NCBI GenBank assembly: GCA_002715825.1
Contig: PBAI01000038.1
Coordinates: 29,142 to 65,371 of the forward strand
DNA: 36,230 nt
Source: Roseibacillus sp.
GTDB taxonomy: Bacteria > Verrucomicrobiota > Verrucomicrobiia > Verrucomicrobiales > Akkermansiaceae
Reading direction: 5' to 3'
The notes under the pieces were generated by a model. That model was not told where the DNA came from. It saw nothing but the letters and a program-made list of their open reading frames with translations, and did not search any database. Positions 606-31,469 of this stretch are shown piece by piece. The translations under genes and the position numbers were made by a program. Numbering within the stretch: position 1 is the first letter of the stretch; each line of letters begins with the position of its first letter.

Positions 606-1798
606 TGATGCATCGACACGCCCTCCTTTTTCTTTCAGCGTTGCTGCTTCTGGCTTATCCCTCAGCCTTCGCTCAGGAAGGGGGCTATTCATCATTTTGC
701 GGAGAGTCTGAGCAGACCGGAGAGCCGCACCCTTCAAAAGATGACGGAACCAGAGTCTCCGTCCTTGGATACCATGAGTTCTCCTCCTCTCTGGCGCCGT
801 CGCAGATGCGCATGAGAACGGCAACGTTCAAAAAGCAGATGGAGGCCCTCAAATCTCTCAGACTCCCCGTGATTTCCCTGCATGATTTTCTTGAGTGGAA
901 GAAGGGGAAAAAATTTATCCCACCCCGCGCAGTGATGATCACAATCGATGACGGATGGAAATCCGTTTACACCGAAGCGTTTCCAATTTTGAAAGAACAC
1001 AAGTTCCCCTTCACGGTATACCTCTACAAGGACTACGTGGACGGAGGTGGCCGCGCTCTAACAACACCGATGATCAGGGAAATGCAGAAACACGGGTGCA
1101 CGATTGGAAGTCATTCCGTTTCTCACCCCTTCCCAGGAACGGTGAAGTATCACGCGCGAAAGGGAGAAGCCGCCTACCTTAAATTTCTCAGGCGGGAATT
1201 CGGTGATTCCAAACGGTTTCTCGAAGGACGATTCGGCCAGCCGATCACTACCTACGCTTACCCGGGCGGCTACTTTACCGAGGCGATGTACCCGGTTGCA
1301 GCAGAGTGCGATTACGAATATCTCTTCACGGTATTACCCGGTAAAATTCGTAGAGGACTGGATAATCGGCGCCTGCCCCGCTACATTATTCATGGAAATT
1401 CCGATCTTCACTTTGAACAGGCTACCACCTTTAAAGCGCTCCGTGGCGCAGAAGCACTGAGCGGAGTGGTTGTCCAAACCACCCCTCACCCGGTGAAACC
1501 CGAACCCGGGAGCAGAATCGAATTGCGGCTCCCCTTGATCACTGCCGACCTCTCCGGGGTAGAAAATCTCAATCCTGACTCTATCGTCATGAGGGTGTCC
1601 GGATTCGGCAAAGTGGACCACGAATACGATCCTGCGTCAGGTCACGTGAGCTGGACTGTCGACCGCCGGCTGCGGCACAGGGTTTGTGAGATTAATGTCC
1701 AGTGGCAGATTAAAGGTCGCGCCAAGCACGAACCCCCCATGCGCTGGAGCTTCCTCGTAGAGAGAGAGGCAGCCTATCAGGTCGGGGCCGGAGAATGA
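605..1798 (+). CDS. Exported polysaccharide deacetylase (NodB family)
   Basis: A 397-residue protein with a clear signal peptide (about residues 1-23, hydrophobic LLFLSALLLLAYPSAFA then Q), so it acts outside the cytoplasmic membrane. The NodB catalytic domain spans roughly residues 50-260: TIDDGW gives the Asp pair (D115, D116) and HSVSH gives the metal-binding His pair (H170, H174), followed by the YAYPGGY motif. Such enzymes hydrolyse N- or O-acetyl groups from cell-wall or exopolysaccharides using a divalent metal. About 110 C-terminal residues after the catalytic domain look beta-rich and may be a carbohydrate-binding or Ig-like domain; I do not recognise it. The ATG at 608 is an alternative start. 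No neighbouring polysaccharide genes indicate the substrate. Confidence 0.85.
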   Translation: MMHRHALLFLSALLLLAYPSAFAQEGGYSSFCGESEQTGEPHPSKDDGTRVSVLGYHEFSSSLAPSQMRMRTATFKKQMEALKSLRLPVISLHDFLEWKKGKKFIPPRAVMITIDDGWKSVYTEAFPILKEHKFPFTVYLYKDYVDGGGRALTTPMIREMQKHGCTIGSHSVSHPFPGTVKYHARKGEAAYLKFLRREFGDSKRFLEGRFGQPITTYAYPGGYFTEAMYPVAAECDYEYLFTVLPGKIRRGLDNRRLPRYIIHGNSDLHFEQATTFKALRGAEALSGVVVQTTPHPVKPEPGSRIELRLPLITADLSGVENLNPDSIVMRVSGFGKVDHEYDPASGHVSWTVDRRLRHRVCEINVQWQIKGRAKHEPPMRWSFLVEREAAYQVGAGE

Positions 1799-1894
1799 GC
1801 GGACTTATCTTATTTATTGAGTTATTCGTTCGGAGGAGACACAACCCCTGAGGCGCTCTCTATATTCTAGAAATTAAACTTGCGGACAAATAGT

Positions 1895-3304
1895 ATGTTC
1901 TCCTCCCTTTCTGACACCTTAGACAAGACTTTCCGGAACCTGAGAGGCGTAGGGCGTATTTCCGAAAAGAACATCTCTGAGGCCCTTCGTGAAATTCGTC
2001 TCGCCCTCTTGGAGGCTGATGTCGAATACAAGGTGGCCCAGACCTTCATTGAGGGGGTAAAGAAGAAGGCGGTAGGCGAAGATGTCCTCAAGTCCATCAA
2101 GCCGGGCGAGCAAATCGTTAAAATTTTTCATGATGAACTTACCGCCCTTCTTGGTGGTGACCAAGCTCCCCTTAACCTGAATCCCCCGGCCCGCATACTT
2201 CTCTGCGGCCTGAATGGCGCCGGCAAAACCACCACTGCAGGCAAACTTGCCTTGCGATTGAAAAAAGAAGGACGACGTCCCCTTCTGGTTGCATGTGATC
2301 TTTATCGGCCTGCAGCGATTGATCAGCTGGCCACAATCGCGGAACAGATAGAAGTTCCCTGCTACACTCCCGAGGCGGGAGAAAAAGATGTTCTTAAGGT
2401 CGCAAAGGCTGCCTTGAAATGGGCTGATCAACAATCGGGATCCTGCATCATCTTCGATACTGCTGGTCGACAAGAAGTGGATGACACCCTTGTAAAAGAG
2501 CTTAAAAAGCTTCACGCCTTTCTCAAGCCTGGCGAAACCCTGCTTGTAGCCGATGCGGCAACAGGCCAACAGGCTGTGAAAGTCGCTCAGACCTTTGATG
2601 ACACAGTTGGTCTTAGCGGCATCGTCCTGACCAAGCTTGACGGTGATGCCAGAGGTGGTGCGGCGCTCTCGATGCGAGCAATCACAGGACGACCGATCAA
2701 GTATGTCGGAGAAGGAGAAAAGCTGGATCAGCTCAATGAATTTCATCCAGACCGCATGGCTGGACGTGTCCTCGACATGGGTGACACCATTACGATGGTC
2801 GAGCAGGTTGCCGAACATCTCGACGAGGAAAAGGCCGCCAAGGCCGCGCGCCGGCTCGAGAAAGGGCGCTTTGACTTCAACGATTTCCTTGAGCAGATGA
2901 AAATGCTCCAGAACCTGGGCCCTCTCGAGGGGCTCATGGGAATGCTTCCTGGATTTAACAAGATAAAGAAACAACTTCCGTCTGGCGCACTCGACCCAAG
3001 TCGCATCAAGCATATGGAAGCGATCGTCCTTTCAATGACACCAAGAGAGCGAAGTCGCCCTGAGATCATCAAGGGAACCCGGCGCAAGCGTATCGCAGGC
3101 GGATCCGGCCGCAGCCTTCTGGAGGTCAATCAACTCCTGAAGCAGTTCGGCATGATGCGTAAAATGATGAAATCAAAGGGCAAAATGAAGAACATGATGA
3201 AACAGCTGGGAGCCCTCGGCGGAGGGGGCCCCGGAGATCTGGACTCCATGAAAGATCTGATGGGAGGGATGGGAGGTAAAGGCGGGCCAAAGCTCCCCTT
3301 CTAA
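1895..3304 (+). CDS. ffh: Signal recognition particle GTPase Ffh (SRP54)
   Basis: A 469-residue SRP54 protein. It binds the signal sequence of nascent inner-membrane proteins with its M domain and targets the ribosome to the receptor FtsY. The N domain opens with MFSSLSDTLD; the G domain shows the P-loop GLNGAGKTTT, the DTAGR motif and TKLDGDARGG. The methionine-rich M domain near the C-terminus has KQFGMMRKMMKSKGKMK, preceded by a typical SMTPRER helix, and the protein ends in a Gly/Met-rich tail. I place the start at the ATG at 1895 because family members begin there; an in-frame TTG at 1880 adds five non-conserved residues. A TATATT at 1861-1866 could be a -10 box, but I see no good -35. 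It converges on smc with a 40 nt gap. Confidence 0.97.
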   Translation: MFSSLSDTLDKTFRNLRGVGRISEKNISEALREIRLALLEADVEYKVAQTFIEGVKKKAVGEDVLKSIKPGEQIVKIFHDELTALLGGDQAPLNLNPPARILLCGLNGAGKTTTAGKLALRLKKEGRRPLLVACDLYRPAAIDQLATIAEQIEVPCYTPEAGEKDVLKVAKAALKWADQQSGSCIIFDTAGRQEVDDTLVKELKKLHAFLKPGETLLVADAATGQQAVKVAQTFDDTVGLSGIVLTKLDGDARGGAALSMRAITGRPIKYVGEGEKLDQLNEFHPDRMAGRVLDMGDTITMVEQVAEHLDEEKAAKAARRLEKGRFDFNDFLEQMKMLQNLGPLEGLMGMLPGFNKIKKQLPSGALDPSRIKHMEAIVLSMTPRERSRPEIIKGTRRKRIAGGSGRSLLEVNQLLKQFGMMRKMMKSKGKMKNMMKQLGALGGGGPGDLDSMKDLMGGMGGKGGPKLPF

Positions 3305-3344
3305 GGGGTCTTCGATCACTTACCCGCCAAAAGCCCGGGCTACT

Positions 3345-6300
3345 CTATTCCTCTGCATCGAGGCGCTCAGCTGCGCGCGAAGCCGCACCTTTGGCCTTCC
3401 CCTTGATGGCCGCCGCCGCTGTTAACCGCATCCCGACAGGCTTGGAAACTCCGAACTCTTCCATTGTCACTCCATACATGACATCAGCCCGGTTCATGGT
3501 TCTCTTGTTGTGAGTCACGATGATGAACTGGCTCTGATCCACAAAGCGATCCAGCACCTTGAGGAAGCGTCCGATATTGGACTCATCGAGAGGCGCATCC
3601 AATTCGTCAAGAACGCAAAACGGGCTCGGCTTGACCATGTAGATGGAGAAGAGGAGCGCAACGGCAGTCATCGAGCGTTCTCCGCCAGAAAGAAGCGTGA
3701 TGGACTGCAGTTTCTTTCCAGGTGGCTTGGCTATGACTTCAATCCCGCACTCAAGGGGGTCTCCCTCGTCGAGCAGAATCAAATCTGCCTTGGCGCTCGA
3801 ACCAAACAGCTCTTTGAACATCTCGCGGAAGTTGGTCTGCACTTGCTTGAAGGTCTCAGCAAAAAGAACAGTCGTCTCCGTATTAATCTTTTCGATCACA
3901 TTAAGGAGCTCCTCCTTGGATACAACCAGATCGTCATGCTGACCCTTCACAAAATCATGACGCTCTTCCAACTCCTCAAATTCATCGATCGAGTCGATAT
4001 TGACCGGTCCCATGCTGTCTAATCTTCCTCTGAGCTCGTCGACAGCCAGTTCGATGAACTTCCAATCAGGACCATCCTCCAGATCGACATTCTGGAGTTC
4101 TTCCTCAACTCGCTCCGCAATAGTCCCTTCTTCTTCAACGGGAGAATCTAGATCCTCCCCTGATCGTGATTGCTCCTCATCCATGGTCTCCTCTTCTGTA
4201 GCTGCCTTGTCCTCATCGCTGACAGGTGCCTTTGCCGCAATGGTAGCTCGACGCTTTTCGAGAGAGCGCATCGCTTTTCGCTGCTCCATCATGCAGGCAA
4301 GCAACGCATGCGAATCTGTTTCAAAAGTTTGAAGATCTACCTGGTAGCGCTCCATGATACTTTCGAGAAGCTTCTCGAGTCGCATATCGATCTTTGCGAG
4401 GGCGACCTCCTCTCGGCCCCGTTGCTCACTCGATTGGCCAAGCTTGCGCCGTAAATCCGAGAGAGCCGCCTCGGCGGCATTAATCGCCTGCTGAATCTCT
4501 CTTCGACGAGCACCCACTTCGTCAATTTGCGATTGAACTTTCTCCTCCTGTCTTCCTCGCTCAGCTATTTCCTCCCGGAGACCCTCATCTTCCTGCCCGG
4601 CAGATTGAATCCGCCTTTCAAACTCTTCTATCTCAGAAAGCCGGCGGGTATTAAGCTCCTTAAGCTCGCCAATTCTTGTCTGGATTGGCACTTGCTGCTG
4701 CTCTGCTGCCTCACGGGTTCGACGTTCTACCGCCAACGCCGTCTGCAATTTGCCATGCGCCTCACGCTCTTCGGACTCTCTTCTTCCGAGCTCCTCTGCC
4801 TGCATGCTGAGACGGTTAATTTCACTTTCCACTGTTTCAAGCTTACCGCGGGCTTCTACGAGCTCGTTCTGCAGTCCTGTTCTCAATCCAGCTTCGCTCT
4901 CTTCCCGGCCTTGAATATCCTCCCGCTCGCGATGAACATTTCCCAGCTTGCCCTCGAATGATTTGACCTCCTGTCCCGCCAGCGAAGCTCGTCCACGCAA
5001 GGTGGAAAGCTCGACTTGCTGTCTCTGAAGACGATCTTTTCCCTGCTCCGCAGAGGCAAAAAGCTCATTAACACGATGAGCATTACCATCCATCTTGTCC
5101 GTTTCTTCGCGTAAAACCGCAGCGAGATGCTCTACCTCCTCCTCCAACTCTTTCACCTCTTTACGCCGCTCAAGCATGGATTTCCCAGCATCTCCCTCCG
5201 CTCGTCCTCCCCGAAAAACACCCTCCGCCCTCACAATCTCGCCTGCGAGAGTCACGCAGGACCAGGAAGGGTTCTGTCCTCGGAGCAGATGAGCCGCCGG
5301 ACGATCTTTTACGACGAGGATGTCTTCCAGCAGGCGGGCCACGACCGAGCCCACTTCCTGTTCCGCATCAACACAGTCTGCCACCCAGCACTCTGCTCCT
5401 TCAGGTACAGTCATGAGCTGTCTATCGTGATCGGGAGCAACCCATTCCGGCGCGATCAGAGAAACCTCGCCCTGCCCGGTCTGAGCGAGTTGATCCAGAA
5501 TGGCATCGGCAAGATCAGCATCCCGAACAAGAATCGCCTCAAGGTTGGCGCCCAAGGCCCCTTCCACCGCCCTCTCAAACCCATTTTTTACCTGGATTTT
5601 GCTTCCCAGAACACCACGTAATCCAGGTTGTATCAACCCGGGGTCATCCAGACCGGCCAGGACCCGTTGGGTTCCCTCGTTCAACCCCTCACCCCGCGCC
5701 AGAAGCTGCTGAAGCAACTCGAGACGGGACCGCCGGCCCGTCAGATCCCGATCGAGCTCAGCACATCGCTCCCGGCAGGCCTCAAGGTCACCTCTGGCGT
5801 GCTGGTAAGACCTCTCAGAGGCAAGTTTCTGCTCTTCGATTTGCCTCGTTCGACCTTCTTCCTCCGTAATTCTTTTAGTCAGATCTTTTTCTGTTCCCTG
5901 TAGCTCCACCATTTCCACCTTCAATACTTCCTCCTCCTCGGTGAGGCGCAGGAGGCGCTCTCGATTGGTGGCCGAAGTGAGCTCCGCGCTCTCGATTTTC
6001 GCCTCAGCGGAGGCAAGCACTGCCTCAAGTCTCTTCGATTCTTCGCGAGCCTCATGCAGGCTGCTTGCACTGGTTTCACGCTGGTTTTTCAACTCTTCCA
6101 CCAGATTCGCCTTCTGGGCAAGAGCCCCACTCCGCTCCTCTATTCGTTCATGCAGGACATGCAGTTCATCTTTAGAAACATTGAAGTCGAGTTCCTGCTG
6201 CGCAAGTTTTTCACCCCCAGCCTCCAAGTCACCACGATTCGTCTCAATTCGCTCCTGCAGTTCCCGGCATCGCTCTTCGTTGAAGAGAATTCTGCTTCCT

Positions 6301-7199
6301 GCAGCCTTGGCCGCATTCTGGTGATTCGAAAGTCGCTGACGAAGCTCTGAGAGCTCACCCTCAAGGTTTGTCGCGTTGTCCCTCGCCTTGACAACTTCCA
6401 TTTCAGCTTCGGGGAGACTCTCCTCCAGTGCTGCCCTTTGCTTTTCCAGCGACTTCAAGGACGTCAGCAGCTCTTCCCTTGCAGCAGATTCCTCGCTGAA
6501 TCTTTTCTGGCTGAGATGGGTATCAAGAATTCTGACATCATTCGCGAGTGCTTGATAACGACGCGCTTTCGCTACCTGTCGCTTCAGGGAATTAATCCTT
6601 CTTGCTTGCTCCTCAAGGACATCATGGACTCTAAGTAGGTTTGCTTCCGTATACTCCAGTTTCCGCAGAGCTTCCTTTTTCTCCTTCTTAAACTTCGTAA
6701 TACCGGCAGCCTCCTCAAAAACTTGGCGACGATCCTCCGGTTTTGCACTGAGCAGCAAGTCGATCTTTCCCTGCTCCATGATTGAATACGCTGACCGTCC
6801 GATGCCGGTATCCATGAAGAGCTCATGAATATCGCGAAGACGACACAGCCTGTCGTTGATGCGGTATTCAGATTTTCCATCTCTAAAAACCCGCCGAGTG
6901 ATTGCCACCTCATGATATTCCGTTTTGAGAGAGCCCTCGCACTCCGTAAGATTCAGAGTCACCTCAGCCATGGGCAGAGCTTTCCTCTTGTCCGTGCCGT
7001 TAAAGATGACGTCTGCCATCTCACCACCCCGCAACGCCTTGGCGGAAGTCTCCCCAAGAACCCAGCGAATGGCATCAACCACATTGGATTTTCCACACCC
7101 ATTGGGCCCCACGATACCGGTAATTCCTTCGTGAAACTCAAAGGTGGTGCGTTCTGCGAATGACTTAAACCCTTGGAGAATGAGAGACTTTAAATGCAT
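3345..7199 (-). CDS. smc: Chromosome segregation ATPase SMC
   Basis: A 1284-residue SMC protein that, with ScpA and ScpB, folds and segregates the chromosome. The N-terminal head has Walker A (GPNGCGKSN, residues 31-39) and a QGK-type loop. Long coiled coils flank a hinge of roughly residues 520-680. The C-terminal head has the signature LLSGGERS (about 1170) and Walker B with FCVLDELDAPLDE (about 1196). The start is the ATG at 7199, giving MHLKSLILQGFKSF, the usual family N-terminus; 18 upstream in-frame codons are not conserved in character. It is longer than typical bacterial SMC (about 1180 residues). Part of the excess is a very acidic stretch at about residues 986-1046. The divergent neighbour is an SDR gene. 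Confidence 0.96.
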   Translation of the reverse strand: MHLKSLILQGFKSFAERTTFEFHEGITGIVGPNGCGKSNVVDAIRWVLGETSAKALRGGEMADVIFNGTDKRKALPMAEVTLNLTECEGSLKTEYHEVAITRRVFRDGKSEYRINDRLCRLRDIHELFMDTGIGRSAYSIMEQGKIDLLLSAKPEDRRQVFEEAAGITKFKKEKKEALRKLEYTEANLLRVHDVLEEQARRINSLKRQVAKARRYQALANDVRILDTHLSQKRFSEESAAREELLTSLKSLEKQRAALEESLPEAEMEVVKARDNATNLEGELSELRQRLSNHQNAAKAAGSRILFNEERCRELQERIETNRGDLEAGGEKLAQQELDFNVSKDELHVLHERIEERSGALAQKANLVEELKNQRETSASSLHEAREESKRLEAVLASAEAKIESAELTSATNRERLLRLTEEEEVLKVEMVELQGTEKDLTKRITEEEGRTRQIEEQKLASERSYQHARGDLEACRERCAELDRDLTGRRSRLELLQQLLARGEGLNEGTQRVLAGLDDPGLIQPGLRGVLGSKIQVKNGFERAVEGALGANLEAILVRDADLADAILDQLAQTGQGEVSLIAPEWVAPDHDRQLMTVPEGAECWVADCVDAEQEVGSVVARLLEDILVVKDRPAAHLLRGQNPSWSCVTLAGEIVRAEGVFRGGRAEGDAGKSMLERRKEVKELEEEVEHLAAVLREETDKMDGNAHRVNELFASAEQGKDRLQRQQVELSTLRGRASLAGQEVKSFEGKLGNVHREREDIQGREESEAGLRTGLQNELVEARGKLETVESEINRLSMQAEELGRRESEEREAHGKLQTALAVERRTREAAEQQQVPIQTRIGELKELNTRRLSEIEEFERRIQSAGQEDEGLREEIAERGRQEEKVQSQIDEVGARRREIQQAINAAEAALSDLRRKLGQSSEQRGREEVALAKIDMRLEKLLESIMERYQVDLQTFETDSHALLACMMEQRKAMRSLEKRRATIAAKAPVSDEDKAATEEETMDEEQSRSGEDLDSPVEEEGTIAERVEEELQNVDLEDGPDWKFIELAVDELRGRLDSMGPVNIDSIDEFEELEERHDFVKGQHDDLVVSKEELLNVIEKINTETTVLFAETFKQVQTNFREMFKELFGSSAKADLILLDEGDPLECGIEVIAKPPGKKLQSITLLSGGERSMTAVALLFSIYMVKPSPFCVLDELDAPLDESNIGRFLKVLDRFVDQSQFIIVTHNKRTMNRADVMYGVTMEEFGVSKPVGMRLTAAAAIKGKAKGAASRAAERLDAEE

Positions 7200-7224
7200 T
7201 TGTGTTATTCCGGCGTGCGCGTAA

Positions 7225-7253
7225 AAAATAAATGGTGGCACCCTCTCGAGCAA
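7225..7253 (-). promoter_or_regulatory. Putative smc promoter
   Basis: On the minus strand TTGCTC (7248-7253) and TATTTT (7225-7230) are separated by exactly 17 nt, and transcription would begin about 19 nt before the smc ATG. The fit is to the sigma-70 consensus by eye only. It also supports the 7199 start over the longer frame, whose start would lie upstream at 7253. Confidence 0.4.
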
Positions 7254-7429
7254 GGAAAGAACCCTTTTAACACAATATCTGGTATCTTTTTAAAAAAGGC
7301 ATACGATATCTCGAATTGTCAGGGCTCATGTAATTTGTGCCGCCGGCACCCCGCAACCTCCGTGAATTCGTCGTCATCAACCCTCAGAGTCACGCAAAGT
7401 TTGCCCGGTCCTCGAGTCCCACAGCGCGA

Positions 7430-7458
7430 TTGACCTGTCTTGTATCCACCTTTAGAAC
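7430..7458 (+). promoter_or_regulatory. Putative promoter of the SDR gene, near-leaderless
   Basis: TTGACC (7430-7435), a 17 nt spacer and TAGAAC (7453-7458) precede the ATG at 7467 by only 8 nt. If correct, the transcript would start within a few bases of the start codon. No Shine-Dalgarno lies in between, which suits a leaderless message. Confidence 0.4.
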
Positions 7459-7466
7459 CCGCCCCC

Positions 7467-8249
7467 ATGCCTACATTTCTTTCCGAACTATTTTCCCTGG
7501 AAGGCAAGATCGCGGTCGTCATTGGTGGCACCGGTGAACTCTGTGGAGCGATGGCAGAAGGCCTCTCACAGGCCGGAGCAGAAGTCGTCTTGGTCGGGAG
7601 GAATGAGCAGAAGGCCATTGCGCGTATTGAGGCCATCACCTCCAAAGGCGGCAGGGGACACTTTGTTGCGGCTGATGTAAGTAGCCGAGCTGGCCTCGAT
7701 GCCCTCCGCCACGAAGTCATCGCAAAACATGGAAGGGTCGATATCCTCGTCAACGGCGCCGGAATCAACTCTCCGACTCCGGTTCTTGATATAACAGAAG
7801 AAGAATTTGCCAATATCATTGATATTAATCTGGCGGGAGTTCTCCGGGGATGCCAGAGCTTCGGCAGCTACTTTCTCGAGGAGAAGATCAAGGGATCAAT
7901 AATCAACCTGGGATCTATTTCAGGCCTCAACCCTCTCTCGCGGGTCTTTACTTACTCCGCATCCAAGGGAGCCGTTCACAATCTCAGCCGTAACCTCGCC
8001 CGGGAGTGGGCACCTCACGGAATCCGGGTAAATACCCTTGTTCCCGGATTTTTCCCCGCGGAACAAAATCGCAAAGTTCTCACTCCTGACCGGGTGGCGC
8101 AGATCATGAGTCACACTCCGATGGATCGTTTTGGTGAAGCTCACGAACTGGTGGGAGCGACTCTCCTACTCGCGTCAAATCGAGCTGGCGGATTTATCAC
8201 CGGCACTGAAATGATCGTAGATGGTGGGTTCAACGCTGTAAGCATTTAA
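7467..8249 (+). CDS. SDR family oxidoreductase, mannonate/gluconate-dehydrogenase-like
   Basis: A 260-residue classical short-chain dehydrogenase. The nucleotide-binding region is GGTGELCGA near the N-terminus, in place of the common TGxxxGIG. The NAG-type motif appears as NGAG, the catalytic Ser is in NLGSISG, and the catalytic Tyr and Lys are in YSASK. The C-terminus ends [17 protein letters not shown], as in SDRs that reduce sugar acids. The GGTGELCGA start and the [10 protein letters not shown] segment after PGF resemble proteins often annotated as SDR-type D-mannonate oxidoreductase or gluconate 5-dehydrogenase. The exact substrate cannot be fixed from sequence. The ATG at 7467 gives the standard N-terminus; an in-frame TTG at 7440 would add nine unlikely residues. 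It stands alone between smc and secA. Confidence 0.82.
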
Positions 8250-12157: not shown

Positions 12158-13408
12158 CTATCCCTCAAAGGATTTCACGATGAGCGTTGCATTGTGACCG
12201 CCAAACCCAAACCCATTGCTTGCAGCCACTCGCACCTTCGCCTCGCGCGCTTCGTTGGGCACGAAATCCAGGTCGCATTCAGGATCTTGATTCTCAAGAT
12301 TAATTGTCGGCGGAAGAACTCCTTCTTTAACTGCCATTATACAGGCCGCAAGTTCCACAGCTCCTGCTGCCCCAAGCAAGTGGCCTGTCATTGATTTTGT
12401 CGAGCTTACCGCCAATCCATTCGTAGCATGATCACCGCATGCTACCTTGATTGCTCTGGTCTCTGCAATATCGCCGAGAGGCGTAGAAGTCCCGTGAGCA
12501 TTCAGATAATCGATTTCATCCGGATTGACCCGCGCATGCTTCATCGCCATCTGCATTGCGCGAGCAGGACCACTCCCATCCGGCGAAGGAGCACTAAGGT
12601 GGTGGGCATCTGCGCTTACTCCATAGCCCGCAAGTTCAGCATAAATCTTTGCTCCACGTTTCTTTGCATGCTCAAGCTCTTCGAGCATCACTACTCCCGC
12701 TCCTTCTCCCATCACGAAGCCATCACGATCGACGTCAAACGGTCGAGAGGCACGTTCAGGCTCGTCATTACGGCAACTTAGCGCCCGCATATTGCTGAAA
12801 CCAGCCAGACCCATATCTCTAATAGAGGCTTCTGCTCCGCCTGCCAGAATAGCCTCGGCGTCGCCGAATTTTATAATGCGCCAAGCTTCACCAACAGAGT
12901 TGTTAGCGGTCGCGCAGGCTGTCACGATTGCCATATTTGGGCCTCCAAAACCATACTCCATGGAGATCATCCCTGTCGCTATATTTGCGATCATCATCGG
13001 AATCACAAAAGGACTGACCCTTGGCGCTCCTTTTTCCGCGTACACCGTATGCTGTTCCACGAGCGTGTGAAGACCACCGATACCGCTTCCCACCATGACA
13101 CCGATCCGGGTCTTATCTACTGACTCAGGATCCATACCGCTGTCATCCATGGCCATTCGGGCAGCGGGAAGGGCAAACTGAGTGTAACGGTCCGATCTTC
13201 TCGCATCCTTAGGATTCGTGTAAAACGGCTTGGGATCAAAACCCCTGACCTCTCCTGCGATCTGGCATGGGAACTCTGAGGCATCACATTGTTCGATTCG
13301 GGTGATCCCCGAGCGCCCCTCCTTGAGACTTTTCCATGTCGTATCAAGATCATGTCCAAGCGGACTGATCGCACCGATGCCGGTTACTACAACTCTGCGT
13401 TCAGACAT
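12158..13408 (-). CDS. fabF: 3-oxoacyl-[acyl-carrier-protein] synthase II (KAS II)
   Basis: A 416-residue thiolase-fold condensing enzyme that elongates acyl-ACP with malonyl-ACP in type II fatty acid synthesis. The Cys-His-His triad is visible: Cys in VTACATANNS (about residue 164), His in NAHGTSTPLGD (about 304), and His in STKSMTGHLLGAAG (about 339). Length and the SNGFGFGGHN C-terminal motif are typical of FabF. The ATG at 13408 begins MSERRVVVTGIG, the standard start. An acpP gene, often adjacent, is not found here. It lies 70 nt downstream of the small zinc-ribbon gene on the same strand and may be read through from the ExbB/ExbD module promoter. Confidence 0.95.
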   Translation of the reverse strand: MSERRVVVTGIGAISPLGHDLDTTWKSLKEGRSGITRIEQCDASEFPCQIAGEVRGFDPKPFYTNPKDARRSDRYTQFALPAARMAMDDSGMDPESVDKTRIGVMVGSGIGGLHTLVEQHTVYAEKGAPRVSPFVIPMMIANIATGMISMEYGFGGPNMAIVTACATANNSVGEAWRIIKFGDAEAILAGGAEASIRDMGLAGFSNMRALSCRNDEPERASRPFDVDRDGFVMGEGAGVVMLEELEHAKKRGAKIYAELAGYGVSADAHHLSAPSPDGSGPARAMQMAMKHARVNPDEIDYLNAHGTSTPLGDIAETRAIKVACGDHATNGLAVSSTKSMTGHLLGAAGAVELAACIMAVKEGVLPPTINLENQDPECDLDFVPNEAREAKVRVAASNGFGFGGHNATLIVKSFEG

Positions 13409-13478: not shown

Positions 13479-13727
13479 TCATCCCAACCGCCGGTCAGGC
13501 CCTGTAAGATTCGAGCTCGCACATTCCGGACATTTCTGCAAATCGCTCGAGCCTGCTCCATCCCGGCGGTAAGAGTGCCCACATACACGGCAATGCAAAC
13601 TATTCTGCTCCAGCTCTCTCTCACACCTTCTCTCACGAATACTTCCCGCGAGCATGAGAATGCCTGCCGAAACCATTGCGACAATTAGAACTAAAGAAAA
13701 AAACTGTGAAAGCTCGATCTCAAACAT
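13479..13727 (-). CDS. Small membrane protein with a zinc ribbon, unknown function
   Basis: An 82-residue protein I do not recognise by name. One transmembrane helix covers about residues 9-29 (SLVLIVAMVSAGILMLAG region), followed by a basic segment and a four-cysteine zinc ribbon: CRVC at 46-49 and CPEC at 66-69, with a 16-residue knuckle between. The ATG at 13727 starts just before the helix; the same frame is open further upstream, but that part overlaps the preceding gene and looks unlike a protein N-terminus. The gap to the upstream TonB-like gene is 8 nt, so it is probably the fourth gene of that operon. The positive-inside rule suggests the ribbon is cytoplasmic. Function unknown; a role in assembly or regulation of the ExbBD-like complex is only a guess. 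Confidence 0.7.
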   Translation of the reverse strand: MFEIELSQFFSLVLIVAMVSAGILMLAGSIRERRCERELEQNSLHCRVCGHSYRRDGAGSSDLQKCPECASSNLTGPDRRLG

Positions 13728-13735
13728 CTTCCAGA

Positions 13736-14557
13736 TTAGCGCGCTTCGACCGTGAAACCTTCCACCCGAATTCTCACACGGCCCCACGCAAGCTCTTCCT
13801 CCCCTGGCACCAGACGCTGCAAACGAAGCCACCGTCCTAGCAATCCATCCAGATCCTGATCATCGGGATCCAGAGATTGACACGTTTGAATCTGCCCCTT
13901 TTCGTCCACGCTGATTATAAACCTCCTATCCAACCCAAGAAGATCTCGAATCCGTAAATTGGCCTCTTCCTCAAGCGTGTTCCCAAGAAGAGCCTCCAGT
14001 GGCCACTCACCGCTGGAGTGGTCCCAACGCTTCCCCAGCTGGCCCTCAACCTGCATATAAACCCGTCCATCGACCTGTGCCGTAGCTTGATCCGCAGTCG
14101 ACGTTGCCGTCTCTCCGGGAAGGTTGCGCTCAAGCGGATTAATAATGGTCGGTAACTGGACCTGCACTGGGAGAGATTCAGAGGGATAAAGAAGGGCCTC
14201 AAACCGTGCTTCCTGCTGGAGGATTTCTCCAAAGGAAGAAACTCGCCTCTCCAATTCGTTATCGACTCTGGGTTCCCATCGCTCCAAATCCGGTGCCTTG
14301 CCATGAGCCCAGGACAGCCATCGGCGGGAGGCCTCACTTCCGGGCGTCAAAACAGTTAAGCTCCCTGCCTCTCTAAATCCCCGACCACCTTCCGCCCCTT
14401 CTACGTTTATCAAAAACGCAAAAGCCCCAAACAGAACCAACCCAAGAAAAACTGCAAACAGGGTTCTTACAAAAGAATTGTCTTCTTGACGCCAGCTGAA
14501 GAGCAAGCCCGCTTTCCTATCCTCAACAATAAGCCGAGTCTTAGTCCACCATCTCAT
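13736..14557 (-). CDS. Membrane-anchored TonB-like protein of an ExbBD module
   Basis: A 273-residue protein with a cytoplasmic N-terminus of about 29 residues, one transmembrane helix (about 30-51, FAVFLGLVLFGAFAFLI) and a large periplasmic part. The last 75 residues have the pattern of a TonB C-terminal fold: a strand (RFIISVDEKGQI), a helix (LDGLLGRWLRLQRLVPG) and a closing strand (GRVRIRVEGF). This assignment is by pattern and is tentative. Its start overlaps the end of the ExbD-like gene by 4 nt (ATGA), so the two are probably translationally coupled. By position it would be the energy transducer of the ExbB/ExbD pair, although the Pro-rich spacer of classical TonB is missing. Confidence 0.6.
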   Translation of the reverse strand: MRWWTKTRLIVEDRKAGLLFSWRQEDNSFVRTLFAVFLGLVLFGAFAFLINVEGAEGGRGFREAGSLTVLTPGSEASRRWLSWAHGKAPDLERWEPRVDNELERRVSSFGEILQQEARFEALLYPSESLPVQVQLPTIINPLERNLPGETATSTADQATAQVDGRVYMQVEGQLGKRWDHSSGEWPLEALLGNTLEEEANLRIRDLLGLDRRFIISVDEKGQIQTCQSLDPDDQDLDGLLGRWLRLQRLVPGEEELAWGRVRIRVEGFTVEAR

Positions 14558-15030
14558 TCGTTCGAAAGCCTTTTCTCCTCCGGAAGAGTCTCTCCCAATC
14601 CACCAAACCCCGTATTTTCCATTTCAAATCGCCCGCCTAATATCACATCAAGACCCACCTCATCCGCAATTATTTCCAGCTCACTGATAAGTCCAAACTT
14701 CATGTTCTGATCGAGCACGGCAACCAGAACCTCAATCCCCCTCTCCTCCTTGAGTCGCATGAGCTCATCAGCAAGATTCTCAAATTGAATTTTTTTTCTT
14801 CCAAGATGAAATTTCGGTGGAGACCCCGCTCGGCCAAAAAGGCTCACTCTTTTCTCAGGCACGATGGTGTCCATCCGCGAGCTGAACTTCATCTTGTTCA
14901 AGGGAACCCCAGCTTGCTCAGCCACTGCGGGAACCAGCGCGAAAAAAATCAGAAGAACTGCAATGATATCCAGAACCGCCAATAGATAAAGGACCGAAGG
15001 CCTTTCTGGAAGCGTCAATTGAGCTTTCAC
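14554..15030 (-). CDS. ExbD/TolR-like biopolymer transport protein (module 1)
   Basis: A 158-residue single-pass membrane protein. The transmembrane helix (about 14-36, VLYLLAVLDIIAVLLIFFAL) carries the intramembrane Asp (D21) that in ExbD/TolR conducts protons. The periplasmic portion contains the usual strand-helix-strand pattern (KKIQFENLADELMRLKEER then IEVLVAVLDQNMKFGLISELEIIADEVGL). It overlaps the upstream ExbB-like gene by 4 nt (15027-15030) and the downstream TonB-like gene by 4 nt. It is divergent from the second ExbD in this window (27024-27503), so it is not a recent duplicate. The protein it energises is unknown. Confidence 0.8.
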   Translation of the reverse strand: MKAQLTLPERPSVLYLLAVLDIIAVLLIFFALVPAVAEQAGVPLNKMKFSSRMDTIVPEKRVSLFGRAGSPPKFHLGRKKIQFENLADELMRLKEERGIEVLVAVLDQNMKFGLISELEIIADEVGLDVILGGRFEMENTGFGGLGETLPEEKRLSNE

Positions 15031-15716
15031 GATTCAACGCTTCTCGACTCCTTTGTTTTGTTCTTCTGGGCCTCGATCTCTTCCCGAAAGGGTAAAATAT
15101 CTATTCCGGATCGTGCATCGACAATGAGGTTCACAACCTCGATTCCTGTCCTCTGTAACCGGTATAAGAGACGCTTCGACTTGCCCAGCATTGTCAGGTA
15201 GAAGACGTAAGACGCTGTCGCGATGCATAACCCTGCTGCAGTTGTTACAAGACTTTGAAAGATGCCACCTGCGAGACTGGCATAGGCTACTTCACCTTCA
15301 GCCTCATTAATTTCAGTAAACGCATCAATTAAGCCCAGAGACGTCCCGAGGAGACCCGCGAGCGGAGCAATAAGGGCGACCCCCAGCAAGGCTCGCAAAT
15401 TTTTCTCAATTCGCGGAACTTCCATACACACCGCCTCATCAGCGATCATGACCAGATCTTTTCGCTCCATGTGATGGCGAATCAGGACGCTATGAGCAAT
15501 TCTTCCTACGGGTCCGCGCAAACGGTTCGCCTGATGAATCGCTTCCGCGAAACCCTTTTGTCGGAGGTGATTCGATATACCCACGAGAAAATCAGCAACG
15601 TTCACCCTGACGCCTTGAAAATAGATAAACCTCTCAATGATGTAGACAACGGCCAGAAAAGCCAAGGCGGCTTGGAGCCAGAGCACCGGTCCACCATACT
15701 GCAAAAGATCCGACAT
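15027..15716 (-). CDS. MotA/TolQ/ExbB family proton channel protein (module 1)
   Basis: A 229-residue protein with the three transmembrane helices of the ExbB/TolQ family: about residues 11-33, a central one in LLGVALIAPLAGLLGTSLGL, and a third in GGIFQSLVTTAAGLCIA. The long cytoplasmic loop lies between the first two. The second and third helices show the family's small-residue, Thr/Gly-rich channel motifs (LLGTSLGLIDAF, LVTTAAGL). I chose the ATG at 15716, giving MSDLLQYGGPVLW, because ExbB-like proteins begin like this and a good promoter lies just upstream. The frame stays open to a GTG at 15815, adding 33 residues that contain that promoter. It is the first gene of the exbB-exbD-tonB-like-zinc-ribbon operon. 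Confidence 0.83.
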   Translation of the reverse strand: MSDLLQYGGPVLWLQAALAFLAVVYIIERFIYFQGVRVNVADFLVGISNHLRQKGFAEAIHQANRLRGPVGRIAHSVLIRHHMERKDLVMIADEAVCMEVPRIEKNLRALLGVALIAPLAGLLGTSLGLIDAFTEINEAEGEVAYASLAGGIFQSLVTTAAGLCIATASYVFYLTMLGKSKRLLYRLQRTGIEVVNLIVDARSGIDILPFREEIEAQKNKTKESRSVES

Positions 15717-26478: not shown

Positions 26479-27027
26479 CTACCTCCGGGCTTTAAGCCTC
26501 TTCAATTCTCCACGCACCATCAGCTTGCCGGCGGCACTCAGTCGATCAACAAAGAGAACTCCATTGAGGTGGTCCGTTTCGTGCTGAATGACCCTCGCCA
26601 GCAACCCGTCGGTCTCGATTTGCAGTTCGCTCCCATCCAGTTGGGGAAAGATTCCATCTACTGTTCCCGGCCTTTGCACCTCGGCACGGACCTCATCAAT
26701 ACTCAGGCATCCCTCTTCCATACGCTCCTTTTGTCCTCCCTTTTTGAAAGTTGGGTTTATAAATACCAGCGGCATTATTTCAGCAACCGATACATTCTCG
26801 CCGTTCACCCTGAGAAAACTCACGCAGTCGGGATCATGAGAGACGTCCACAACTGCCAGTCTAAGATCGATCCCCACCTGAGGAGCAGCAAGACCCACTC
26901 CGTTGGCATCGTGCATTGTTTCAATCATGTCCTTCACGAGATTCCTGATTTCATCTGTGACTTCTTTGACCTCTCTGCAGCGTTTACGCAGAATTGGGTC
27001 TCCAAACTGGGTGATTGGGAGAATCAT
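26479..27027 (-). CDS. def: Peptide deformylase
   Basis: A 182-residue metalloenzyme that removes the formyl group from the initiator methionine of nascent proteins. All three signature motifs are present: GVGLAAPQVG (43-52), EGCLS (105-109, metal-binding Cys) and QHETDHLNG (148-156, two metal-binding His and the catalytic Glu). HETDH replaces the commoner HExDH with I or L at the variable position. The start overlaps the stop of exbD by 4 nt (27024-27027, ATGA), so translation is probably coupled. The usual partner fmt is not in the window; linkage to an ExbBD module is an unusual context for def. Confidence 0.96.
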   Translation of the reverse strand: MILPITQFGDPILRKRCREVKEVTDEIRNLVKDMIETMHDANGVGLAAPQVGIDLRLAVVDVSHDPDCVSFLRVNGENVSVAEIMPLVFINPTFKKGGQKERMEEGCLSIDEVRAEVQRPGTVDGIFPQLDGSELQIETDGLLARVIQHETDHLNGVLFVDRLSAAGKLMVRGELKRLKARR

Positions 27028-27503
27028 GGCTGAAGCGGATCTACAAAGTCAACAGGCTGGGGACGACGAATACGGGCGGGAACGTCCTTGATGTCATACT
27101 GTGCTGCGGTCAAGGCGTCCAGCACCATGAAAAGCTGTGAAAGAGTCGCTCCCTGATCTGCCGCAAGCTCCAGTTTGCGAAGGGGATTTTCCTGACGGAA
27201 TACGAGTAACGCATCGGTGAGAAGGTCAGGACTCGCGAGCTCATAGTTATCAAGGGTAATCCTGCCTCCTGATCCCACCGCGAGCACGGCCCTGCGCTCG
27301 ACGACCTCGGAGGTTTCCATTTCCTTCACCACAGGCAGGGTCACCTTTACAACTGGCCTTGGTTCCGGAGGTATCACAGGACTCTGCTCTTCTTCCGGAA
27401 CTCCACGAGTTACGATGAAAAAGATAAGCAAGATTGTGAGAATATCTATAAGGGGAACAATGGGAACCCTTTCTTTCCTTCGGCCTGTCTCGTAAAATTT
27501 CAT
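27024..27503 (-). CDS. exbD: ExbD/TolR-like biopolymer transport protein (module 2)
   Basis: A 159-residue protein with a basic N-terminus (MKFYETGRRKERV), one transmembrane helix (about 13-33, IVPLIDILTILLIFFIVT) carrying the proton-path Asp D20, a Pro-rich linker and a periplasmic strand-helix domain. It partners the ExbB directly upstream, with one shared base (TAATG at 27503), and would transmit the proton-motive force to the TonB encoded at the head of the group. It overlaps def by 4 nt. It is clearly a different lineage from the ExbD-like protein of module 1. Confidence 0.88.
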   Translation of the reverse strand: MKFYETGRRKERVPIVPLIDILTILLIFFIVTRGVPEEEQSPVIPPEPRPVVKVTLPVVKEMETSEVVERRAVLAVGSGGRITLDNYELASPDLLTDALLVFRQENPLRKLELAADQGATLSQLFMVLDALTAAQYDIKDVPARIRRPQPVDFVDPLQP

Positions 27504-28240
27504 TATCGGCCCGCGTCTGGAAATTGAGAGAATTTCGGCTGACCGTCCATTTTCCCACCACGCTCTGCCTGAGTATCACGGGCTCCAATAATCTCCCCTA
27601 ACAATACCTCCAGGCGAGCTGCCATTGTCTCAATTTTTCTTGTGAAATAACTGTGGGCTACCACTGATGGAACCGCGACTACCATCCCCGCGATTGTGGT
27701 TCCCAGCGCCCGCGCAATCCCCGCACCAATCTTCGCATTGTTGGCACCCGAAGTCAGGTCCTCGGTGTTTCCAAAAATGACAACCAACCCGCTCGCTGTT
27801 CCAAGCAGCCCCAACAAGGGAGCAACGGTAATTACTACGTCAAGAATTGGTAATCCCGCATTCATCCGGACGATTTCTTCTCTCGCGCTTGCCTGAACCG
27901 CCTCCTTTGCCTCCCTCAAGGGGCGATCCTCATTCCTCATGGCTACATCGCACAAACGCGCAAGAGAAGAACCTCCCTCTCTGAACTCTGAACGCAACCT
28001 TTCCAGTTGGTCACTTTCGTGATGCGTCTCGACCAGCTCAACCTCCCCCGCCAAGCGCCCGGGCACGACCGAGGCCTTCGTCAGGGTCAGCAGTTTATAT
28101 ACGATCACCATGAGTGCCAGCACCGAGCATAATATGATCAGGAGCATGAAGAGCCCTCCGTCAGAGAAGAACTTCCAAGTTTTCTGAAGAGCTTCCGGTG
28201 CAACTCCTGATACCGCAAATTGACTAAACGCAGGCAACAT
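27503..28240 (-). CDS. exbB: MotA/TolQ/ExbB proton channel family protein (module 2)
   Basis: A 245-residue inner-membrane protein with three transmembrane helices: about 29-52 (GLFMLLIILCSVLALMVIVY), a second in VVITVAPLLGLLGTASGLVVIF, and a third in ALGTTIAGMVVAVPSVVAH. The LLGLLGTASGLV and GTTIAGMVVAVP signatures are typical for ExbB/TolQ. It forms the pentameric proton channel around ExbD. It lies 1 nt after tonB and shares a base with exbD, showing tight operon structure. The N-terminal stretch before helix one lacks a cleavable signal peptide in the clear sense, though some ExbB relatives have one. Confidence 0.9.
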   Translation of the reverse strand: MLPAFSQFAVSGVAPEALQKTWKFFSDGGLFMLLIILCSVLALMVIVYKLLTLTKASVVPGRLAGEVELVETHHESDQLERLRSEFREGGSSLARLCDVAMRNEDRPLREAKEAVQASAREEIVRMNAGLPILDVVITVAPLLGLLGTASGLVVIFGNTEDLTSGANNAKIGAGIARALGTTIAGMVVAVPSVVAHSYFTRKIETMAARLEVLLGEIIGARDTQAERGGKMDGQPKFSQFPDAGR

Positions 28241-28241
28241 C

Positions 28242-29465
28242 TCAAAAGTGAAAGTTTATATGAAATTCCAGATCCTCTCCATCAAGCTCGTTGATAACCT
28301 CCTCCGGCATTCGGGGCAACTGTGGCTGCTGGACTGCTCTCATGGTAAAACCCTTCTGCATGGCGCTCGCCTGAAAGACGTCAAGGTATCGTAGCCCGGA
28401 AACCTGACCGGCCTTATCCACATAGAAGCGGAGGGTCAGAATTCCCGGAAGAACATGATCCCTGTGCATCACGCAACGCCTCTGCCACTCGGTCTCGATG
28501 ATCCGGTTCACCTGTGCTTTGTATTTTCCGAGAGCTGTTGCCTCTACCTTTAGAGAACTTTGACCTCGGCGACTAATCGTCCCCTCCATCCTCGTCTTCC
28601 GGGCTTCGGTATTAAACCCCGCCCGCTCTGAAGCCTTCTTTAATCGATCTTCGGACGTCTCTTTTAAGCCCTCCTCTACGCTCTCATCGACATCGACATT
28701 TTCCGGTCGGTCTGGATAGTTCTCATTCTTCTGTTGCCGTAAATCTGATTCTTCTCCAGCGGGAACTTCAACAACATCGCGCCCTCGGGGAGGCTCTACC
28801 TCATCATTTGGCGGGACTGGGCTCTCAGGCTCTCGAATCACAGAACCCGTCACCTCCTTCCGGGGCTCTCCGGGATCAGCCTGACCTTCGTTTTCTCCTG
28901 GCGAGAATGTAGAATCGGTGAGAATTCTTTCGCTCCGCTCAGATTCTCTTCCATTCTGAGTCGGAAGGGCTAGCCCGTCAGTTCGAGAAGGAGCTAACTC
29001 ACTGCTCTCTTCGGTATTACGTTCTCCGATAAGAACCGCACCTTCGGGAGTGCTTTCAATCTCCTGCTCCGGCGATGTTTCAGCAAAGCGCTTTGAATTA
29101 ACTTCAGCAGGCTCTGGTAAGGATATGTCGTCAGTTAACCGATCAGAAATTTCGGGGGGTGCACCTGCCTGTTCAAGAGCATCACGCATCGCCATCAACT
29201 CCAATGCGTCCAGCTCAACGAGAGAATCTCTCCCATTATCAGCAGGAGCCTTACTGACGACCTCGATATCCTTCTGTTCCGCCAGAATATTTATTACTGC
29301 TCCTCCAACCATCGCACCGAATGCCATCAGATGTAAAATCACCGCAGCGACTACAGCTATGGCGACACTTTTTTCTTTCGCTGGTCTTGGAGCGAACACA
29401 ACCCAGAGAGTCTCACCCGAGTTTTCCTCACTGGCAACTACCGAACCGCTTTCCATGCTCTCCAA
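28242..29465 (-). CDS. tonB: TonB-like energy transducer with long acidic linker
   Basis: A 407-residue single-pass protein. An N-terminal cytoplasmic part is followed by a transmembrane helix at about 34-60 (VAIAVVAAVILHLMAFG), which includes a His (H45) as in TonB helices. Residues about 65-310 form a long linker rich in Glu, Ser and Asp, unlike the Pro/Lys linker of classical TonB. The last 95 residues (from LGKYKAQVNRIIETEWQ) carry the TonB C-terminal pattern: GILTLRFYVDKAGQVSG, then a helix, then ELDGEDLEFHINFHF. With ExbB and ExbD it would power outer-membrane transporters, none of which lies in the window. Its start lies 28 bases inside the rsmA-Nudix gene. An alternative start is the ATG three codons later. 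Confidence 0.78.
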   Translation of the reverse strand: MESMESGSVVASEENSGETLWVVFAPRPAKEKSVAIAVVAAVILHLMAFGAMVGGAVINILAEQKDIEVVSKAPADNGRDSLVELDALELMAMRDALEQAGAPPEISDRLTDDISLPEPAEVNSKRFAETSPEQEIESTPEGAVLIGERNTEESSELAPSRTDGLALPTQNGRESERSERILTDSTFSPGENEGQADPGEPRKEVTGSVIREPESPVPPNDEVEPPRGRDVVEVPAGEESDLRQQKNENYPDRPENVDVDESVEEGLKETSEDRLKKASERAGFNTEARKTRMEGTISRRGQSSLKVEATALGKYKAQVNRIIETEWQRRCVMHRDHVLPGILTLRFYVDKAGQVSGLRYLDVFQASAMQKGFTMRAVQQPQLPRMPEEVINELDGEDLEFHINFHF

Positions 29466-30787
29466 CAGGAAATAAATCCGGTAGAAAAATCCTCAGGGCG
29501 CCTTGAGAGCCAAGCACAAACCTCCTCAGGAGGCATCCATATGCCAGCCTCAACCTCGGAACAGGGAAAGCGAATTGGGTCCGTTTGGCGGATTTCGAAT
29601 AGGTGCACGAACTCCCAGCCTGTCTCTTTGGTGGGCGGCAAAATCGCTACAGGACTTAATTGCCCTACGTCTTCCCCGCTTATCTTCTGACCGGCCTCTT
29701 CCTCGAGCTCTCTTATTGCACACGACTCATAACTCTCTCCCGAATCGAGGTGCCCACCGACACTTGAGCCCCAGACCCCCGGTTGAGCATCCTTCAGTTT
29801 CGACCTTTTCTGAAGAAACACCTCCCCACGCTTATTCAAAATGAAGACATGGACCGCACGATGAATAAGATTTTCCTGATGGACCACCGAACGTTGCTCC
29901 TGACCAACTACCTGATCTTGCTCATCGACAACATCAAACAACTCGTCATCCCGCTGTGGAATTTTGCTCAGGGGATGCGGATCATAGCATCTGCAAAGCT
30001 CTATCCATTGCGCGAGGTCCAGTTCCTCTGCTCGAGCAGTCTCTGCGACGCCAAGATCAGCAGCTACCTCAGACCATTCTGGCCCAGGTGGCAGGGCCTT
30101 TCGAAGTTGCTTACGCCTCTGTGAAAATCCCCTGCGGACAAGCTCATCAAAAAAGCGAGCATCATAGACCGGCAAATCGTCGCTCCGCGGACTGACCTTG
30201 ACCACAGTTGAATCAATGGCCGGACGCGGATAAAATACACTGGGGCCAATCGTCTTTATTGGATTACTCACCCACTCGCTCTGCATCCTGAGCGAAAGCA
30301 CTCCATATTCCTTGGTTCGGGGCTTCGCTACGATCCGGTCGATTACCTCTCGCTGGAGCATGAGGACCGCTTGACAGATCGGAGACGGTCGCTCGAGAAA
30401 GTTTCGCAAGATCGCACCACCTGCGGAATAAGGCAGGTTCCCGATGAGCTTAACAGGCCCCTCCTTAAACAAGGGCCGCAGGTCAAAGCGGGCTCCATCT
30501 GCATGCACTACGTCAACGGTGTCGTCTTTGGCAAACCGCAGTTGAAGCCAATCCGCGAGCCTTCGGTCAAACTCGACAAGAAGTAATCGGCGCACTCTAC
30601 CGACAAGAGCCTCGCTCAATGAGCCTGTCCCTGGACCTACTTCCACCACGAAATCGTCTGGTCCCGGAGCTAACTGATCGACAATCCACTTAGCGGTATT
30701 TGGGTCAGTGAGGAAATTCTGTCCCAGTTTCTTGGAGGGAACTACGCCCGCTTGCTTGAGGGCCTCCCTGACATCATTCCCGGTCAC
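29438..30787 (-). CDS. rsmA: RsmA (KsgA) rRNA dimethyladenosine transferase fused to a Nudix hydrolase
   Basis: A 449-residue two-domain protein. Residues about 1-278 are RsmA/KsgA, which dimethylates two adjacent adenines near the 3' end of 16S rRNA. Its motifs are KKLGQNFLTD, the SAM-binding VVEVGPGTGSLSEAL, the catalytic NLPYSAGG (about 120) and VFYPRPAIDS. Residues about 290-449 are a Nudix hydrolase of the IPP-isomerase/YfcD-like type: FDVVDEQDQVVG, HRAVHVFILNKRGEVFLQKR, then a complete Nudix box with GGHLDSGES and RELEEEAG (about 342-365). I chose the GTG at 30787 because VTGNDVREALKQAG is the normal KsgA start. The longer frame to an ATG at 30889 would overlap the pgsA start on the other strand. 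The 3' end overlaps tonB by 28 nt. Confidence 0.9.
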   Translation of the reverse strand: MTGNDVREALKQAGVVPSKKLGQNFLTDPNTAKWIVDQLAPGPDDFVVEVGPGTGSLSEALVGRVRRLLLVEFDRRLADWLQLRFAKDDTVDVVHADGARFDLRPLFKEGPVKLIGNLPYSAGGAILRNFLERPSPICQAVLMLQREVIDRIVAKPRTKEYGVLSLRMQSEWVSNPIKTIGPSVFYPRPAIDSTVVKVSPRSDDLPVYDARFFDELVRRGFSQRRKQLRKALPPGPEWSEVAADLGVAETARAEELDLAQWIELCRCYDPHPLSKIPQRDDELFDVVDEQDQVVGQEQRSVVHQENLIHRAVHVFILNKRGEVFLQKRSKLKDAQPGVWGSSVGGHLDSGESYESCAIRELEEEAGQKISGEDVGQLSPVAILPPTKETGWEFVHLFEIRQTDPIRFPCSEVEAGIWMPPEEVCAWLSRRPEDFSTGFISCWRAWKAVR

Positions 30788-30887
30788 GGGGAAATAATGA
30801 GGGAACCATGACCACGGGGCAAGAAACGAGAGACTGGAGATCAAGCACTCGCCACATGCCACTCTCTTGACTAAGTTAAGGCCTGCC

Positions 30888-31469
30888 ATGACTGCGGCAA
30901 CCTACCTTACGCTTCTCCGGACCATTCTGGTTCCGGTATTTGCGGTGCCCGCCGTCTCCTATGGGATGAGCGTAAAATCAGGCAACCCCAATGAGACTCT
31001 CCACTGGTGGGCTGTGGGGATATTTTTTGTCGCCGCAATGACGGATTACGCAGATGGAGTCATCGCCCGTCGCTACAACCAACGAACCCGTTTTGGTGCA
31101 TTTCTTGACCCTTTTGCAGATAAACTTCTCATTCTTACCGCTATTACGATCCTCTTCCTCCTGCCTTGGGGCGATAACTGGAAGATCCCTGTATGGTTCG
31201 TCGGGCTTGTCTTTCTTCGAGATGCCATTGTATGGGGCGGCATTGTAATACTACGCTATTTAAACCGCTCTGTTGAAATAAAACCGCATTGGACAGGAAA
31301 GGCCTGCACAGCTTCGATCATGGTCACCGTCTCATGGACAGGACTGAAAATTATCCCTATCAATCCAATTTATCCTGTCATTGTCACCTCGGTCTTTATC
31401 GTTCTGGCTACCGGTCAGAGCATTCTTCAAGGAGTGCAGATGCTACATCAGCAAAAATCTCGTCCATAA
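30888..31469 (+). CDS. pgsA: CDP-alcohol phosphatidyltransferase (PgsA family)
   Basis: A 193-residue polytopic membrane enzyme. The family motif is complete: D53, D56-G57, A60-R61, G70, D74 and D78 (TDYADGVIARRYNQ then FGAFLDPFADK). These Asp residues bind the CDP-diacylglycerol and metal. The size and N-terminus (LTLLRTILVPVF) match phosphatidylglycerophosphate synthase, which makes the precursor of phosphatidylglycerol and cardiolipin. A different alcohol acceptor is possible, since the family shares the motif. The ATG at 30888 fits; the TTG at 30867 would add seven residues. The gene is 12 nt upstream of der. Confidence 0.85.
   Translation: MTAATYLTLLRTILVPVFAVPAVSYGMSVKSGNPNETLHWWAVGIFFVAAMTDYADGVIARRYNQRTRFGAFLDPFADKLLILTAITILFLLPWGDNWKIPVWFVGLVFLRDAIVWGGIVILRYLNRSVEIKPHWTGKACTASIMVTVSWTGLKIIPINPIYPVIVTSVFIVLATGQSILQGVQMLHQQKSRP

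Follow-up and report, generated by a model that had tools for sequence, protein, structure and literature searches.

Four genes, here called A to D, lie on the minus strand between positions 15716 and 13479 of the window, by which we mean the whole 36,230-nucleotide stretch of DNA that we analyzed; all four open reading frames given in the preliminary description are present. The window comes from a Roseibacillus sp. metagenome-assembled genome (MAG) of 3.6 Mb that is 88% complete and 7% contaminated, and the nearest named relatives are MAGs from Roseibacillus and Akkermansiaceae. A (15027..15716) encodes a 229-residue ExbB/TolQ-like motor subunit, B (14554..15030) a 158-residue ExbD/TolR-like subunit, C (13736..14557) a 273-residue single-pass transducer, and D (13479..13727) an 82-residue membrane zinc ribbon. 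A and B overlap by 4 nt, as do B and C, and 8 nt separate C from D. These spacings agree with the preliminary description, which had also placed ATGA at both overlaps; ATGA occurs at B/C alone, and the A/B overlap reads GTGA, B having a GTG start. The promoter-like pair proposed upstream of the module fared worse. Since our promoter scan yielded no minus-strand sigma-70-like site upstream of A, and the number of sites was at chance level compared with shuffled sequence, we regard an upstream promoter as unsupported. In the window, the neighbors of the module are a DEAD-box helicase gene and fabF (12158..13408, minus strand), which lies 71 nt behind D on the same strand and had gone unmentioned earlier. 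As judged from synteny, fabF is a conserved neighbor that probably has no functional part.

Both motor subunits could be assigned from Pfam profiles and key residues. A matched MotA_ExbB (PF01618) with 71.1 bits (E 9.5e-20, cut-off 22.9), in agreement with its earlier recognition as ExbB. B matched ExbD (PF02472) with 20.0 bits (E 7.5e-4), below the curated cut-off of 25.4; its Asp21, in the transmembrane (TM) helix, aligned with the TM Asp of ExbD/TolR, and we take B to be ExbD-like. The essential residues in E. coli are the pore threonines of ExbB, Thr148 and Thr181 (T148 and T181), and the TM Asp of ExbD/TolR (Asp25/Asp23) (PMC12905483). The window module keeps all three, with both pore threonines in A and Asp21 in B, and judged by these residues its motor looks intact. 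A tree of ExbB proteins grouped the 96 module members together, a branch with SH-aLRT 97 separating them from six other Verrucomicrobiota ExbBs that include the second ExbB of the window and those of three other loci of the source genome. The inner order of this tree, which was built by a quick method with few outgroups and has some long branches, mostly tracks family labels.

Of the 96 module ExbBs, 95 have Thr at the T148 position; the T181 position drifts mildly (70 Thr, 16 Ser, and 10 Ala). In 38 of 92 tree rows, Asn, Ser, Cys, or Ala stands in place of the ExbD TM Asp; across 106 aligned rows, the position holds Asn in 36 and Ser, Cys, or Ala in 4. Mapping onto the ExbB tree gave at least 13 changes between Asp and other residues. 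The Asp is retained in the window, in the majority of its relatives, and, from their sequences, in the other ExbDs of the source genome. In some lineages that have lost it, the motor may thus be dead, mixed, or re-wired. A Glu in ExbB making up for the lost Asp is not supported, as the E176 position is not conserved and holds Glu in 4 of the 33 members of the Asn lineages; there was no consistent compensating acid.

C has no Pfam match, TonB families included, and a TonB_C search of the source genome found one other protein alone. The protein has a cytoplasmic N-terminal end with an AGLxFxWR motif, a TM helix at about residues 29-49, and a TonB/TolA-like C-terminal domain (CTD) at about residues 162-269. 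In an AF2 model using 46 natural homologues, the CTD was predicted with confidence (pLDDT 86-96) and comprised strands 162-171, 210-218, 222-228, and 256-269 along with a helix at 234-245. Foldseek gave nothing below E 0.001 for this model, its top match being a TonB CTD at 0.019. With VIA-align, rows 1-22 were all TonB or TolA CTDs (Z 6.6 to 3.4), led by 1tol (Z 6.6, rmsd 3.4 Å over 86 residues), 7zc8 (Z 6.3), and 1u07 (Z 6.1); the first unrelated row, with a Z of 3.4, tied with the lowest-scoring TolA row. An HMM of C run against PDB sequences produced a chance match only and was set aside. For 43 of 46 sequences, positive-inside charges predict a cytoplasmic N-terminal end. One TM helix and a TonB-like C terminus had been proposed for C, with structure prediction as the check, and the predicted model does contain a TonB/TolA-like domain. 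As a model-based assignment, that of C as an inner-membrane protein with a TonB/TolA-like periplasmic end is well supported.

TonB and TolA contact the motor via a Ser-His-Leu-Ser (SHLS) motif in the TM helix (PMC12905483). This motif and its His are absent from the window C, and any His in the TM region was found in just 2 of 46 Akkermansiaceae-type C proteins, at the helix edge. What is kept in place of the His is a cytoplasmic motif with a Trp, GLxFxWR or LxFxW, immediately ahead of the TM helix. More distant members differ in this respect: a His falls within the predicted TM helix or adjacent to it in 6 of 8 C proteins from deep relatives and in 3 of 8 from the intermediate set. In profile comparison, the Akkermansiaceae C aligned with the intermediate set across 233 columns (E 1.4e-21), and the intermediate C with the deep-class C at the CTD (E 3.8e-6, probability 87); the direct comparison of Akkermansiaceae with deep-class C was weak (probability 6.5). 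Since the window's family lacks the TM His and most deep and some intermediate relatives have one, we infer that C descends from a TonB/TolA-type transducer and that the canonical motor contact was lost in the Akkermansiaceae branch.

D consists of one long helix (residues 6-41 in the model) followed by two cysteine knuckles, CxxC-CxxC, and ends in DRRLG. Cys46, 49, 66, and 69 are invariant in alignments of 47 and of 30 sequences, and the charge bias is N-out/C-in in all 91 sequences, the N-side being lower. These features bear out the earlier account of an 82-residue membrane protein with a CxxC-CxxC ribbon and add that it has one TM helix. Several generic zinc ribbons were returned by Pfam, all below cut-off. 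In the fold check that had been suggested for D, the helix and the two knuckles were modeled, and a fold look-up with this long helix and short knuckles gave no clear match. The identity of D as a membrane-anchored zinc ribbon, whose ribbon is predicted by the positive-inside rule to face the cytoplasm, is well supported.

We found C in the source genome and in all 14 other genomes of the same genus, in one of which it is split over two contigs, and more weakly in six genomes of the same family. About 13 kb was read around each C, and every relative locus uncut by contig ends held A-B-C-D-fabF, with varying genes upstream of A. This synteny is still kept where identity to the window's C falls to about 20%. 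Among 59 named Akkermansiaceae-type loci (Roseibacillus, Haloferula, Luteolibacter, Rubritalea, Persicirhabdus, and Akkermansia-labelled MAGs), 47 held A-B-C-D-fabF, 5 A-B-C-D, 4 A-B-C, and 3 A-B; we take the 12 short loci to be mostly contig-end cuts. The 4-nt A/B overlap was present in 53 of the 59, and C and D share a stop-start overlap in 29 of 52 loci.

Across the 387 Verrucomicrobiota genomes that our distribution counts cover, a first D profile matched 191 and a broader profile 348 (281 of the 310 good ones), where weak matches near E 1e-4 may be other ribbons. Of the 85 genomes with both genes among the matches listed, 74 have D on the strand of A, 955-1697 nt downstream of it. The 11 exceptions include a family (f9) of the same class as the source genome, which we think is Opitutales, where about 35 kb separates A-B-C from D, which is flanked by rplQ and guaA. 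Another family (f4) has the set split, with either A apart from B-C-D or A-B apart from C-D. Elsewhere in the phylum, A-B-C-D is followed by guaB, guaA, fabF, or hisD-hisC, and in deep lineages a gene directly upstream of A encodes a secreted-type TPR protein of about 840-880 residues, the start of which resembled a secretion signal by eye. The proposed synteny check was thus answered with C and D genes adjoining exbB/exbD in all 14 same-genus relatives, in Akkermansiaceae, and in other classes of the phylum. Recurrence of the four-gene set throughout the phylum means that the association is not a matter of chance, and it is well supported that the module is ancestral to Verrucomicrobiota and was inherited mainly vertically. 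Taking TPR-A-B-C-D-guaB... as the simplest ancestral order, we regard the place of fabF next to D as a likely remnant of that order and not as a sign of functional partnership. A functional link to fabF or to lipids was considered and set aside as weak, since behind D fabF is swapped for guaB, guaA, or hisD in other lineages. Within the phylum, one 0.9 Mb genome (G092) keeps A, B, and D, with C recognized only as a 70-residue fragment; in the sibling genome G113, A is missing and D is matched weakly if at all.

The window contains a second module (26479-29465, minus strand) that encodes a 407-residue TonB/TolA-like transducer, ExbB, ExbD, and peptide deformylase (def). Its ExbB and ExbD matched PF01618 and PF02472 above cut-off, and its transducer is without a Pfam match. 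Like A-B-C-D, this module combines ExbB, ExbD, and a transducer with a TM helix and a TonB/TolA-like C-terminal end; it differs in gene order, as the preliminary description had pointed out, and also in having the TM His, in belonging to another ExbB clade, and in having no zinc ribbon. At 29438-30889 on the minus strand, a single 483-residue frame carries rRNA adenine dimethylase and NUDIX domains. On another contig of the source genome (G000:C26), a row of genes for a TPR protein, ExbB, ExbD, and an 802-residue membrane-anchored PD40 propeller makes up an uncharacterized motor cluster (868-7880 of locus L051). The same contig encodes a 430-residue protein (5822-7114 of locus L211) with a TonB/TolA-like TM helix that contains His and with an OmpA domain; from its sequence, this could possibly be a transducer with a peptidoglycan-binding arm. 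One ExbB/ExbD locus occurs on both G000:C20 and C27, in opposite orientation and with identical ORF lengths, which reflects either duplication or assembly redundancy.

Very probably, A, B, and C provide a dedicated motor plus transducer, and there is a good chance that D works with them. We also lean toward A-B-C-D as a whole being a dedicated Exb/Tol-type force-transducing complex of Verrucomicrobiota. In our estimation, the evidence is strong for synteny, the motor subunits, and the TonB/TolA-like arm, moderate for D as a partner, and weak for the physiological role. In the mechanism that we propose, five A around two B would conduct protons, the A/B motor would turn or flex against C, and C would pull on a partner at the peptidoglycan or the outer membrane, with D perhaps capping or regulating the cytoplasmic side of A. 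The task of the complex would be Tol-like housekeeping of the envelope and not import of a single nutrient. We favor this role because of the tolQ-tolR-tolA order, the near-universality of the module, and the TPR neighbor, and hold it as a tentative assignment with a little less than even confidence. The preliminary description had suggested that this may be an unstudied energized envelope complex. We likewise found no prior study; that the complex is energized is what we infer, and the ExbD Asp is lost in many relatives.

Other explanations differ in which part of the module they question. D could be a stable chromosomal neighbor, like fabF, guaB, or hisD, that does something unconnected with the motor, as might be expected from the one family that keeps D by guaA at a distance from A-B-C. 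However, D tracks C while the genes on its far side change (fabF, guaB, guaA, and hisD), stays with C in the split f4 genomes, and overlaps C stop to start in more than half of the loci, and we find it unlikely that the two are unrelated. As for the motor, the assembly might act as a structural scaffold for which ion flow is dispensable in many lineages, or B might pair there with another, Asp-bearing ExbD, and the window member may be still active. The repeated loss of the ExbD Asp and the unconserved E176 position are consistent with such a scaffold, which we nevertheless judge improbable given that the window and the majority of its relatives still carry the Asp, that the T148 position is nearly invariant, and that the T181 position drifts mildly.

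The remaining alternatives concern the task. An ordinary TonB system, in which A-B power C, C opens TonB-dependent transporters for nutrients, and D is incidental, would suit the CTD of C, which is equally near TonB and TolA, as well as the four Plug-domain receptors of the source genome, which would then depend on C. We consider it quite improbable, as the source genome has a separate strong TonB_C protein, the second module of the window has a transducer that keeps the TM His missing from C, and no receptor gene lies beside the module in the loci whose neighbors were read. A Verrucomicrobiota version of Tol that holds the outer membrane at division is a serious contender, if short of an even bet; the TPR protein encoded upstream would be its CpoB-like partner, and D an extra. 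Such a version is in line with the A-B-C order, the near-universal presence in the phylum, the TPR gene upstream of A in deep lineages, and the lack of a TolB_N match in the source genome, although this MAG is only 88% complete. Speaking against such a Tol version, pal and tolB are not beside the module, the second transducer of the window may be the TolA instead, and TPR genes flank other motors too, as in the cluster on G000:C26. A more speculative and rather unlikely proposal is that the module represents a phylum-defining machine type in addition to the known Exb/Tol/Mot ones, in charge of the Verrucomicrobiota envelope and made of motor, transducer, and zinc ribbon and joined by a TPR partner in deep lineages. 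Its ribbon would sense or gate from the cytoplasm, and the many lineages without the Asp would work through a different ion path, with a mixed ExbD dimer, or without ion flow.

The preliminary description knew of no described system with a zinc-ribbon member. Our literature search, which covered non-subscription papers and so is not proof, likewise found nothing on a zinc-ribbon Exb/Tol member or on the A-B-C-D set, nor any relevant study of Akkermansia ExbD. TolA, TonB, and vWA types, the last with TPR genes in PVC bacteria, are covered by a 2025 survey of periplasmic force transducers whose main text makes no mention of zinc (PMC12204202). A 2025 MotAB study is silent on zinc as well and points to numerous generic ion transporters whose function is unknown (PMC12505986). 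The module is an ancient variant of the Exb/Tol-type machine and, as far as we searched, unstudied. It would be core machinery of the envelope, seemingly never studied, for the whole phylum to which the gut bacterium Akkermansia belongs. Some species (Tichowtungia) have no recognizable TolA or TonB (PMC12204202), and C-type proteins, divergent enough for Pfam to miss, could fill such gaps. With the natural Asp-to-Asn ExbDs and the lost TM His, it can also be tested directly which components the Exb/Tol mechanism really requires.

Comparison with known systems places the module among force transducers of several kinds. The PVC vWA force transducers resemble it in having motor, TPR, and transducer genes in Verrucomicrobia and in being unstudied; their C-terminal domain is vWA, in contrast to the TonB/TolA-like domain of C, and no zinc ribbon is mentioned for them (PMC12204202). 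With TonB-ExbB-ExbD, the module has in common the motor proteins, a TonB-like CTD (1u07 and 7zc8), and N-in single-pass topology. It differs from that system in that C has no Pfam TonB_C match and, in the Akkermansiaceae branch, no TM His, and in that the module is unlinked to receptors and adds D. A search for canonical Tol-Pal in the source genome (88% complete) gave no TolB_N, and OmpA-domain proteins are encoded elsewhere. Compared with Tol-Pal, the module has no adjoining tolB/pal, the window C is without the SHLS His in its TM helix, a zinc-ribbon protein is added, and the ExbD Asp is lost in many members. What the module does share with TolQ-TolR-TolA is the order of motor, motor, and transducer, a broad housekeeping distribution, and the CTD fold of TolA, to which C was matched through 1tol.
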